NCBI GenBank assembly: GCA_003162415.1
Contig: PMOL01000005.1
Location: 256,064-320,063, forward strand
Length of the DNA stretch: 64,000 nucleotides
Reading direction: 5' to 3'
DNA from: Candidatus Dormiibacterota bacterium
GTDB taxonomy: Bacteria > Chloroflexota > Dormibacteria > Aeolococcales > Aeolococcaceae
Below the pieces are notes generated by a model, which ran no database searches, was not told where the DNA came from, and saw nothing but the letters and a program-made list of their open reading frames with translations. Of the stretch, positions 17,915-62,875 are shown piece by piece. The position numbers and the translations under genes are program-made. Positions within the stretch are counted from its first letter, which is position 1. Each line of letters opens with the position of its first letter.

Positions 17915-19009
17915 TCAGGCCACGGCGGCATCGGAGCAGACCGAGACCGCGTCGAGACACTCATCGATGATGGCGTGGACGAGGCGGTCGACACGCTGCT
18001 CACCGAGCCGCGGCGCATGACGGGAGAGTCGCTCGACGATCGCGTTCTCCCGGACGCGATCCCGCTCCGGCAGCAGAGCGGCAGACTTGTGCTGCTGCAC
18101 CGCCTCCACCATCGCCACGCGGTATTCGAGCATGCGGAAGACCGCATCGTCGATCGTGTCGATCATCGCCCGGCATCCGGCAACCGACCCTGCGACAGCT
18201 GGGCGCGTCATCGCGCACAGCGACAGTGATGTCTGCACGATTCGGGTCAGCACCTGTGGCGTGATCGCCTGTGCGGCGTCGCATAACGACGCGGCCGGGT
18301 CGGGATGACACTCGATGAGGAGTGCGTCAGCGCCGGCCGCAAGTGCCGCGACGGCGAGTGACGGGACCCAACGCGCATTGCCGGCGGCATGGCTCGGGTC
18401 GACTGCGATCGGCAGATCAGTCATATCTCGCAGGACGGCGATCGCGCCGACATCGAGTGTGTTCCGGGTTGCGGTTTCGAAGGTTCGGATGCCGCGCTCG
18501 CAGAGGACGATCTGGCGGTTGCCCTCGGCGGCGATGTAGTCGGCGGCCGCGAGCCATTCGTCGTAGGTTGCCGACATCCCACGCTTAAGGATCACTGTCA
18601 TGCCGCTCTGTCCGGCTGCGCGCAGCAACGGTGTGTTGTGCATCGAGCGCGCTCCGATGAGCAGCGCATCGACATGGGGGCGCAGCAACTCGATGTCCTC
18701 GGCGGCGAGCGGTTCGGCGATCACGGGCAAGCCGGTCACGCGTTTCGCCTCGTCGAGCAGAGGCAGCCCAGCAGTTGTTCCGAGGCCCTGGAACGATCCA
18801 GGGCGTGTCCGCGGTTTGAGGACGCACCCTCGCAGTACCGATGCGCCGGCCCGATGGGCGGCGACCGCATGTTCGACGTAGCCCGCCTCGACCGCGCACG
18901 GCCCCGCGATGACCGGCACGGTATCGCCGCCGACCTCGACGGCGCCGATGCTGACGCGGTGCGTGTCCTGGCGTCGGGTCGCGCTGATGAGCAGCGGCTC
19001 GATGGTCAC
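17915..19009 (-). CDS. 3-deoxy-7-phosphoheptulonate synthase (type I beta) fused to C-terminal AroQ-type chorismate mutase
   Basis: AGPCAVE, KPRTRPGSFQGLG, LKRGMSATYDEWLAAADYI, DPSHAAG; C-terminal CRAMIDTIDDAVFRMLEYRVAMVEAVQQHKSAALLPERDRVRENAIVERL. Confidence 0.93.
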   Translation of the reverse strand: MTIEPLLISATRRQDTHRVSIGAVEVGGDTVPVIAGPCAVEAGYVEHAVAAHRAGASVLRGCVLKPRTRPGSFQGLGTTAGLPLLDEAKRVTGLPVIAEPLAAEDIELLRPHVDALLIGARSMHNTPLLRAAGQSGMTVILKRGMSATYDEWLAAADYIAAEGNRQIVLCERGIRTFETATRNTLDVGAIAVLRDMTDLPIAVDPSHAAGNARWVPSLAVAALAAGADALLIECHPDPAASLCDAAQAITPQVLTRIVQTSLSLCAMTRPAVAGSVAGCRAMIDTIDDAVFRMLEYRVAMVEAVQQHKSAALLPERDRVRENAIVERLSRHAPRLGEQRVDRLVHAIIDECLDAVSVCSDAAVA

Positions 19010-19104
19010 TGTGTGGCACCTCCGTGTGGTGATGGGCCATCACACGGGATCCCGGGGCTGACCCATCTCTGATGAACCAGCCCTGGTAACGACTGCGCGT
19101 TGGT

Positions 19105-19167
19105 CTAGAAAACCCCCGGCAGCCTTACGGCTGGCGGGCCAAAGTATCGACGCGCAGTTGCGGCCAT
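19105..19167 (-). CDS. candidate attenuator leader peptide MAATARRYFGPPAVRLPGVF
   Basis: 20-codon ORF with adjacent Tyr and Phe codons upstream of DAHP synthase; overlaps intrinsic terminator. Confidence 0.45.
   Translation of the reverse strand: MAATARRYFGPPAVRLPGVF
19107..19138 (-). terminator. candidate intrinsic terminator/attenuator in DAHP synthase leader
   Basis: Minus strand CCCGCCAGCC-GTAA-GGCTGCCGGG (one mismatch) followed by GGTTTTCT. Confidence 0.6.
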
Positions 19168-19175
19168 TGACGCAA

Positions 19176-19184
19176 ACCCTAGCA
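19176..19184 (-). promoter_or_regulatory. candidate extended -10 element for DAHP synthase leader
   Basis: Minus strand TGCTAGGGT, ending 8 nt before the leader-peptide ATG. Confidence 0.4.
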
Positions 19185-19230: not shown

Positions 19231-23753
<4,523 letters not shown>

Positions 23754-23754
<1 letters not shown>

Positions 23755-60217: not shown

Positions 60218-61424
60218 CGACCTGGCGCCCGGGGCTCAACGTCCGGGCGGGATCGAGCTGACGCTTCACCGACCGCATCAGGTCGACGGCCACGTCGTCG
60301 TCCGCGTCCCCGGACACGAACACATCGCCCCGCCGGATCGCCAGCCGCCCACCGGCGGTGCGGACGGCCGTGCGGACGGTCTCGAGCGCCTCGGGCGCGA
60401 AGCGCATCTCCCCGGTGCCGAGCAGGGGACGCCACGCGACCGCATCGCACGTAGCAGACATGGATGACAGAAACTCACCGGCCCGCGCCGGTAGCGTGGC
60501 GACAGCGGCGACCGCACCGGCGCCTGTCCACGGCGAGCCCGCGCGCGACGCAGTCAATGCGGCCCCATCGTCCGGAGTAAGGTTGCGTCCCCCGATGTCG
60601 CGGGTAACGCGCTCTGCCTGCACCGCAGCGCCCTGCTCGGAGCTGTCGAAGCGCACCACGACGACCCCCTCGGGCCAGTGGAGGTCGACCACGCTCGGCG
60701 TCACCTGGAGCCGCCCGACTCGCGCGGCAAACTCGCAGAGCTCGAGCACCGACCGCGACTCGAAGGCGACGGTACTCGACGCCGCCGGCAGCGGATGGAG
60801 GCGGAAGGCCACCTCGGTCACGATCGCGAGGGTCCCGAGCGAACCGATCAGCAGCTTGGCGACATCGAACCCCGCGACGTTCTTGACGACCTTGCCGCCG
60901 CTTCGCCCCACGGTGCCGTCGGAGAGGACGAAGCTCGCCCCGATGACGAGATCGCGAGGAGTGCCGAATCGAGTGCGCAGCGGACCGCTTGCGGCGGTTG
61001 CGAGCATGCCGCCGATGGTGGCAGCGTCTCCCTGGGGTGGGTCAAGCATGAGGCGCTGCCGGAAACCGGGAGCCGAGGCGAGGGTCTTCTGAAGGTGACT
61101 GAGCGTGGTCCCCGCCCGTACCACACAGACCAGGTCCGCCGGCTCGTGATCGACGATGCCTTCGATCCGGGAAGTCGAGAGCACGACATCGCACCGTTCC
61201 GGCGGCGAACCCCAGTCGATCTTGGTGCCGCCTCCTCGAGCGACGACTGCCAGGCCGCGCGCCGTGGCTGCGGAGAGCACCGAGGCGACCTCGTCCTCGT
61301 CCGCCGGTGACACCACCAAGCTCGGAACCACGCCGCCGACGGCATCCGAGGCATCCGCGGCCCTGACGTGAGCCGCGCCGACCAGCTCGGCGAAGAGGAC
61401 GAGCTCCGGCGCCACCGACGCCAT
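60207..61424 (-). CDS. glcE: glycolate oxidase FAD-binding subunit
   Basis: VVARGGGTKIDWGSPP...ATIGGMLATAASGPLRTRFGTPRDLVIGASFVLSDG. Confidence 0.92.
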   Translation of the reverse strand: MASVAPELVLFAELVGAAHVRAADASDAVGGVVPSLVVSPADEDEVASVLSAATARGLAVVARGGGTKIDWGSPPERCDVVLSTSRIEGIVDHEPADLVCVVRAGTTLSHLQKTLASAPGFRQRLMLDPPQGDAATIGGMLATAASGPLRTRFGTPRDLVIGASFVLSDGTVGRSGGKVVKNVAGFDVAKLLIGSLGTLAIVTEVAFRLHPLPAASSTVAFESRSVLELCEFAARVGRLQVTPSVVDLHWPEGVVVVRFDSSEQGAAVQAERVTRDIGGRNLTPDDGAALTASRAGSPWTGAGAVAAVATLPARAGEFLSSMSATCDAVAWRPLLGTGEMRFAPEALETVRTAVRTAGGRLAIRRGDVFVSGDADDDVAVDLMRSVKRQLDPARTLSPGRQVGGI

Positions 61425-62875
61425 CACAGCCGCTCCGCCAGGCCCGACATCTCGATCGCGTGGGGTCGGTACATCCCGGGGACCTCGCCACAGAGCCTCG
61501 GGGTGGGCAGCGCCTTGCCCGGATTGCAGAGGTCGCGCGCATCGAAGGCGTCGCGAACCCTCCCCATCACCGAGATCGAGCCGGGGCTGAACATCTTCGG
61601 CATATAGCAGGCCTTGTCCGAGCCGACCCCATGCTCACCGGTGATCGAGCCGCCGGCGGTGATGCAGGCGTCGAGGATCAATCCGGCGAGCTGGAGCGCC
61701 CGCTCCCCCGCGCCCGGCTCACTGTTGTCGTACAGAACCAGGGGGTGGAGGTTGCCGTCGCCGGCGTGGAAGACGTTGGCGACGCGCAGCCCGTAGGTTG
61801 CCGAGAGCGCGCCGATCTGCTCGAGAACGTCGCGCAGCCGTGTGCGCGGAATGACCCCGTCCTGGACGTAATAGTTCGGGCTGATCCGTCCCATCGATGC
61901 GAAGGCGGCTTTGCGTGCTTTCCAGATGAGGGCGCGTTCGGCTTCGCTCGCCGCAACGCGGGTCTCGGTCGCTCCGCTCGCAGCGCAGATGTCGAGGACA
62001 TCGCGGAGGAATGCGGCGGACTCGACGGCGGGACCGTCGAGCTCGACGATCAGGGCGGCGCCGCAGTCCGGGTAGCCGGCATGCACGATCTCCTCGCAGG
62101 CCTGGATCGCCAGGCGGTCCATCATCTCGATGGCGGCGGGGGTGATACCTGCGGCGATGATCCGCGACACCGCCTCGCCGGCGTCACCCATCGTCGCGAA
62201 CGCCGCGAGGACCGTCTCGGTGGATTCGGGGACGCGGACGATGCGGAGCACGACCTCGGTCACGATGCCGAGGGTCCCCTCGCTGCCGATCACCATGCCG
62301 AGCAGGTCGTAGCCCGCGGCGTCGCGCACCGCCCCGCCGAGCCGCGCGATCCGTCCGTCGGCGGTGACGAACGTCGCCCCGAGGACATGGTGCGTGGTGA
62401 AGCCATATTTCAGGCAGTGGGCGCCGCCGGAGTTCTCGGCGACGTTCCCACCGATCGTGCACACCTGCTGCGACGAGGGATCGGGTGCGTAGAAGTAACC
62501 AAGTGGCCGCACGGCTTTGCTGACCTCGAGGTTGGTGACACCGGGCTGCACTGTGACCTGGTGGTTGTCGAGGTCGATGTCGAGGATCGCTCGCATCCGG
62601 CTGAGGCCGATCACCACGCCGTCGGCAACCGGGAGGGCTCCACCGGAGAGACCAGTTCCGGCGCCGCGCGCGACAAACGGCACCTGTGCCTCAGCGCATG
62701 CGCGGACGATCTCGGCCACCTCCGCGGTGGTGAGCGGCAGGACGACCGCGGCCGGCGAGACGCGCCGCCCGGTGAGGCCGTCGCATGCATAGGTCTGCAG
62801 TGCCGGCGTCGCGGTGATCATCCCGTCGTCGCCGACAATGGCGCGCAGCGTTTCGAGAAAGGCGCGATCAAGCAT
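61424..62875 (-). CDS. glcD: glycolate oxidase subunit, FAD-linked
   Basis: VARGAGTGLSGGALPVADGVVIGLSRM...GGNVAENSGGAHCLKYGFTTHHVLGATFV...GEHGVGSDK. Confidence 0.95.
   Translation of the reverse strand: MLDRAFLETLRAIVGDDGMITATPALQTYACDGLTGRRVSPAAVVLPLTTAEVAEIVRACAEAQVPFVARGAGTGLSGGALPVADGVVIGLSRMRAILDIDLDNHQVTVQPGVTNLEVSKAVRPLGYFYAPDPSSQQVCTIGGNVAENSGGAHCLKYGFTTHHVLGATFVTADGRIARLGGAVRDAAGYDLLGMVIGSEGTLGIVTEVVLRIVRVPESTETVLAAFATMGDAGEAVSRIIAAGITPAAIEMMDRLAIQACEEIVHAGYPDCGAALIVELDGPAVESAAFLRDVLDICAASGATETRVAASEAERALIWKARKAAFASMGRISPNYYVQDGVIPRTRLRDVLEQIGALSATYGLRVANVFHAGDGNLHPLVLYDNSEPGAGERALQLAGLILDACITAGGSITGEHGVGSDKACYMPKMFSPGSISVMGRVRDAFDARDLCNPGKALPTPRLCGEVPGMYRPHAIEMSGLAERL

Follow-up and report, generated by a model that had tools for sequence, protein, structure and literature searches.

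A probable leaderless Phe/Tyr(/Trp) attenuator acting on translation of the DAHP synthase-chorismate mutase gene in Dormibacteria

In the pheL-pheA and trpL attenuators of Escherichia coli, a leader ORF that is preceded by a Shine-Dalgarno (SD) sequence is combined with a Rho-independent terminator. In translational attenuators of the erm and cat type, a ribosome stalled in the leader frees a buried SD.

DAHP synthase is the entry enzyme of aromatic amino-acid synthesis. A Phe/Tyr leader before a DAHP synthase gene is already known in Corynebacterium glutamicum (PMC11802643). There, the aroR leader carries Phe-Tyr-Phe ahead of aroF (PMC11802643; PMC4046766), and the aroR-aroF attenuator (Neshat et al. 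2014) is described in PMC11802643 as transcriptional. Mycobacterial leaderless small ORFs (sORFs) with polycysteine stretches are described as attenuators that regulate translation of the downstream genes (Canestrari et al. 2020; PMC9031893, PMC9094748). For actinobacterial ileS T-boxes and LEU elements, sequestration of the SD has been proposed in place of a terminator, and Phe/Tyr operons of the Actinobacteria have no conserved RNA structure reported in the same survey (PMC1262725). No leader-peptide attenuator of the uncultured soil phylum Ca. Dormibacterota was found in the literature searched.

Here we describe the region upstream of a DAHP synthase-chorismate mutase gene in a 64,000-nucleotide stretch of a Candidatus Dormiibacterota genome (contig PMOL01000005.1), which we call the window and to which all coordinates refer unless a contig is given. 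Like C. glutamicum aroR-aroF, the locus has a Phe/Tyr leader peptide before a DAHP synthase gene, with the same inferred signal and target. It differs from that system, as described, by the lack of a conserved terminator and by SD sequestration instead, and further by its occurrence in a different phylum and by the fusion of the DAHP synthase to a chorismate mutase. With the mycobacterial polycysteine sORFs it shares a seemingly leaderless leader ORF with a run of the relevant amino-acid codons, cysteine there and aromatic amino acids here, and by analogy these leaders would be the closest known mechanism. Mutually exclusive hairpin segments read by a stalled ribosome would be common to the present element and to pheL-pheA and trpL, whereas the last step here would be the SD. 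The proposed SD sequestration is also a likeness to the ileS T-boxes and the LEU element, although the former read tRNA directly and the latter is a pseudoknot in which the role of the leader codons is doubtful. In the erm and cat systems, the stall is drug-induced and not caused by uncharged tRNA.

The regulated gene (17915..19009, minus strand) starts with a GTG at 19009, as confirmed base by base, and its product matches DAHP_synth_1 (DAHP synthase; PF00793) and CM_2 (chorismate mutase type II; PF01817), placing the gene in the same pathway as the sensor amino acids. Orthologs are present in 27 of 110 genomes of the class, and none was found outside it among 399 sampled genomes of the phylum at E ≤ 1e-82. 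Wherever the gene shares the contig, the leader element occurs once per genome and only 5' of this gene. No aromatic leader was seen upstream of the other two DAHP synthase genes of the same genome, and a simple pattern search gave no box-plus-ORF candidate upstream of its two chorismate-binding genes. One congener genome (G005, 92% completeness) has neither the DAHP synthase-chorismate mutase gene (at E ≤ 1e-76) nor the leader element. At another locus (L062; G000:C13:about 60282-62400, minus strand), a single open frame of 718 aa encodes a three-part fusion whose N-terminal part resembles AroQ chorismate mutase and whose other parts are a prephenate dehydratase domain and a DAHP synthase, and a second prephenate dehydratase match neighbours it on the opposite strand (C13:59671-60234). 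For gltB (19231-23754, plus strand), the frame is open upstream of the listed ATG at 19534, back to a CTG at 19231; this position is ATG in the congeners L004, L005 and L074 and CTG in the window and L003, which suggests that gltB starts at CTG in the window.

The leader ORF (MAATARRYFGPPAVRLPGVF; 19105..19167, minus strand) runs for 20 codons from ATG to TAG and has no SD. Its sensor codons (19141..19146) are Tyr8 (TAC, 19146-19144) and Phe9 (TTT, 19143-19141). A base-by-base check located the -10 box, the leader ORF, the hairpin arms, the outer complement, the second hairpin and the SD exactly where the sequence-only reading, which had proposed a Tyr/Phe leader-peptide attenuator upstream of this gene, had placed them. 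The window leader has just two clustered sensor codons, and three aromatic codons in 20 are, taken alone, unremarkable by chance.

All 26 orthologous loci of the class with complete upstream sequence have a leader ORF, 20-28 codons long and containing a cluster of 2-7 Phe/Tyr/Trp codons; this count includes the G004 leader, located at a contig end and found with a covariance model, and the G028 leader, which precedes a fragmentary gene. In each of the 26, the aromatic cluster stands just before the pairing arm termed B below, and 25 leaders align in frame, their length changes being multiples of three. Phe, Tyr and Trp account for 79 of 411 codons in 18 representative leaders (shuffled mean 23.5, sd 4.3), and the other two frames contain 14 and 22 aromatic codons; both synonymous codons are used for Phe as well as for Tyr. 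Within the window's genus, identity is about 94-99% in the leader ORF and 5' region, 85-96% at the gene start and 58-93% in the spacer upstream of the promoter. Because of its conservation at 26 of 26 loci, the aromatic enrichment in the ORF frame only and this pattern of identity, we regard the leader as beyond chance. Conserved leaders, frame-specific enrichment and the domains of the downstream product together support the type of element first proposed, and no orthologous leader without ORF and hairpin came to light.

The leaders form three groups: group 1, with ten loci including the window plus G004 (...ARRYF..., ...RFYF..., ...HFYFYFY...), group 2, with eight loci (MFAIAPRFYFYFEY... and relatives), and group 3, with seven loci (...WRYFFGF..., ...WTYWYSF..., ...WFTF...). 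In the leader of L061 (G028), Ser has replaced Phe at two codons of the run (RSYSYFEY), with the Tyr codons retained, perhaps a drift toward Tyr sensing.

Leader ORFs that act through reinitiation are described (PMC4833913), and an ORF of this kind could also act through translational coupling or reinitiation to boost expression of the gene behind it, without any amino-acid sensing. As 72-96 nt separate the leader stop codon from the start of the gene, and as such a mode of action would give the aromatic cluster no role, we consider it very unlikely.

An extended -10 box, TGC-TAGGGT (TGCTAGGGT; 19176..19184, minus strand), lies 8 nt before the leader ATG, which puts the predicted transcription start at or within about 3 nt of this codon. 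Every one of the 26 homologs has a TANNNT box whose end lies 6-11 nt upstream of the leader start (8 nt in the window), and two members of group 3 (L022 and L027) also have TTGACA at 17 bp spacing from the box. In 464 kb, made up of 400 kb of the organism's own genome and the window, candidate starts show an excess of TANNNT at distances of exactly 6-8 nt upstream (15, 11 and 9 versus 2.6 per position). Leaderless mRNAs thus seem to be common in this organism. Since a box precedes every leader start at a similar distance, the leader ORF is probably leaderless, and judging from the -10 spacing, the transcript would start at the leader ATG itself. The earlier suggestion of a nearly leaderless ORF is in keeping with both the homologs and the genome-wide peak.

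The leader RNA is predicted to fold into a series of helices, all on the minus strand. Segment A (ACTGCGCGT; 19150..19158) is the 5' side of the outer helix A:D, in which 19158-19150 pairs with 19100-19092. Hairpin P1 (B:C; 19115..19138), previously taken for a terminator with a perfect 10-bp stem, is present with arms at 19138-19129 and 19124-19115, but consists of 4 + 5 bp with a C.C mismatch. Its segment B (GCCAGCC; 19129..19135) can pair with C in P1 or with E in an alternative helix. The small hairpin P1b (GGUUU-ucu-AGACC; 19102..19114) has homologs with complementary GG..CC arms that differ in sequence. The 5' arm of the alternative helix S is formed by the P1 loop and segment C (19117..19128) and its 3' arm by segment D and flank (19086..19099), the D part pairing with A in the other state. 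Segment E (GGCTGGT; 19076..19082) pairs either with B or with F, in the latter case as the 13-bp hairpin P2 (19055..19083). The 5' part of F (GATGGGTC; 19060..19067) is complementary to 19038-19031 within hairpin P3, a complement present in 8 of 8 leaders tested. P3 (19015..19053) is the predicted SD sequestor: it had been thought to end just before the SD but spans about 19053-19015 and pairs most of GGAGGTG (19017..19023), the SD of the DAHP synthase gene, verified base by base. These assignments derive from predicted folds, supplemented by comparison of cognate with swapped arms for A, P1 and both arms of S, by swap test and covariation for the 3' arm of S and for E, and by SD-opening energy and a swap test of the Y:SD arms for P3. 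A search of Rfam yielded no family above its gathering score; a match to the L-myc IRES at 18423-18597 stayed under that score and was taken as chance.

In group 1, B either pairs with C, or B, loop and C together pair with D, flank and E (helix S plus B:E). The two arrangements are mutually exclusive, S excludes A:D as well, and both overlap the leader ORF and covary in the window's group. The alternative fold S + B:E contains five pairs in which both sides have changed (mean of shuffles 1.8; 0 of 500 shuffles), its covariation score was reached by none of 500 shuffles, and 93% of its cells are paired, falling to 16-48% once slid. Four pairs with changes on both sides are located in S, and B:E shows a compensatory A-U to G-C change. 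Exact permutation of cognate versus swapped arms within the window's group gave P = 0.0005 for S, P = 0.006 for B:E and P = 0.003 for B:C, in a set of few, related sequences. For A:D, cognate arms pair better than swapped ones over 18 leaders (P = 0.0002) and not within the window's group (P = 0.62); cross-group P values are generally stronger than within-group ones. The F:P3 complement is conserved in sequence without a covariation signal (P = 0.23, eight leaders), and P2, F:P3 and P3 vary too little within the window's group for a test. In groups 2 and 3 taken alone, most pairings are not significant, and RNAalifold applied per group is weak at these small numbers. In group 2, the partner of D is either A, which holds the aromatic codons, or C (-27 to -30 kcal/mol); in group 3, direct pairing is possible between the leader arm and the anti-SD arm (GGAGC..GGACGA with UCGUC..GCUCC). 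So the same switch logic seems to be built differently in the three groups.

Folds of this kind might equally serve another sensor, the RNA being a riboswitch or a protein-binding leader and the ORF incidental. The long conserved blocks of the window's group (GCCAGCC....GGCTGCC and ACGCGCAGTC) and the few Tyr/Phe codons of the window copy would suit such a reading, but aromatic enrichment confined to the ORF frame over 18 leaders, the use of both synonymous codons and length changes in multiples of three would not, and neither a conserved unpaired core common to the three groups nor an Rfam match was seen. We therefore judge it improbable, though less so than simple coupling.

A classical transcriptional attenuator, with P1 as an intrinsic terminator whose formation is blocked by the stalled ribosome, would be in keeping with the description of C. 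glutamicum aroR-aroF as transcriptional (PMC11802643), and in the window copy a GC-rich hairpin is followed by GGTTTTCT, which had been interpreted as the U-tract. However, this tract consists of just four consecutive T, three of the four U pair inside P1b, and a terminator scan of the window leader found none. At the matching site, the congeners have GGGGGTCCTCTAA, GGGGGTCTTCTAA or GGGGGTCTTGTAA and the window has GGGGGTTTTCTAG; the T-run is absent from the congeners and all other homologs, TTTT being found in the window copy only. No U-rich tract follows P1, P2 or P3 in 18 leaders scanned, the few U-rich tails belonging to hairpins within the aromatic codons, and the orthologs have no conserved intrinsic terminator hairpin plus U-tract. 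Comparison of homologous upstream regions thus bore out the expected aromatic codons, kept at 26 of 26 loci, but not the terminator, whose U-tract is missing outside the window copy. Because the U-tract is not conserved, whereas SD pairing and the alternative helix are, the hairpin crossed by the leader ORF is better read as a switch hairpin; the ORF does run through it, but read-through of an intrinsic terminator no longer fits. Intrinsic terminators with a weak U-tract are conceivable, and a transcriptional attenuator is, on balance, unlikely, if slightly the strongest of the alternatives.

Rho-dependent termination between leader and gene has been proposed for the terminator-less leader peptides of mycobacterial cys operons (PMC1262725). 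Here, none of 21 relatives had a match to the Rho RNA-binding domain, and with a full-length Rho model none of 61 genomes of the class, incomplete genomes of which 22 are at least 90% complete, exceeded the cut-off of 509 bits, the maximum being 72 bits. Either search recovers Rho from most control genomes, and the matches below the cut-off are best read as related ATPases, for example ATP synthase subunits. With no Rho factor recognised in the 61 class genomes, a Rho-dependent leader attenuator is the least probable of the readings considered, and extremely so.

All three groups have the SD of the DAHP synthase gene paired in the default fold. Once the ribosome has left the leader behind, opening the SD is costlier in 17 of 18 leaders than in their dinucleotide shuffles (mean z 1.75), and for P3 the cost amounts to 8.3 kcal/mol versus 5.5 in shuffles. 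Moreover, cognate Y:SD arms pair better than species-swapped arms, with 0 of 5000 permutations as good (18 leaders). When the leader hairpin is shuffled, modelled SD opening changes little overall (mean z -0.4).

In 11-12 of 21 homologs, the SD is easier to open, by more than 1 kcal/mol (mostly 2-6), with the ribosome edge at the aromatic codons than with a ribosome past them, a count not materially changed by the choice of a footprint of 8-13 nt from the A-site codon; one homolog of the 21 shows the opposite direction. In L014 and L018, the SD comes free of its sequestor arm in the fold with a ribosome inside the aromatic run and is closed in the fold with a ribosome at the last Tyr. In the window copy and its congeners, the SD-opening energy hardly changes with ribosome position and stays at about 8.3 kcal/mol almost throughout. 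If the ribosome edge is placed directly upstream of B, the window RNA has S + B:E as its minimum-energy fold, in which P2 is dissolved and P3 persists, and F:P3 pairing is 4.0 kcal/mol worse than retained P3, in equilibrium folding that leaves out co-transcriptional order and pseudoknots. Opening of the SD by a stall is thus modelled for about half of the homologs and not for the window copy.

We propose that the element is a ribosome-mediated attenuator of the DAHP synthase-chorismate mutase gene that would sense charged Tyr and Phe tRNA and, in relatives, Trp tRNA too. The leaderless transcript would begin at the leader ATG. With an ample supply of Tyr-tRNA and Phe-tRNA, or with the leader untranslated, A:D, P1, P2 and P3 would form and P3 would bury the SD. 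A ribosome stalled on the aromatic codons would cover A and stand just before B, so that B, loop and C could pair with D, flank and E; this would release F, which could invade P3, leaving the SD free and the DAHP synthase gene translated. The direction of this response, with starvation raising expression, would follow from pathway logic and from the modelled behaviour of about half of the homologs only; stalling and SD release in the window copy are likewise part of the model.

That a ribosome-mediated attenuator senses charged Tyr/Phe tRNA and acts on the SD of this gene appears likely to us. Most likely, it is a new, class-wide leaderless Phe/Tyr(/Trp) attenuator that acts on translation rather than transcription. 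The element fits leader-peptide attenuation in a new form and falls outside the definition of a terminator-type attenuator. More tentatively, and with somewhat less than even confidence, it may be a leaderless, terminator-free translational aromatic attenuator throughout this class of uncultured bacteria, in which three exclusive pairings relay the signal over ~100 nt to an SD that is open only during a stall on aromatic codons. That the SD would be closed on an untranslated leader as well as after passage of the ribosome, in a class without recognised Rho, is a possibility that we hold just as tentatively.

If this is true, amino-acid attenuation can run without a terminator or Rho on a leaderless mRNA, and a ribosome stall can be relayed to a distant SD. 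The three distinct architectures that the 26 homologs use for one task would then offer natural variants for studying how such a relay evolves.
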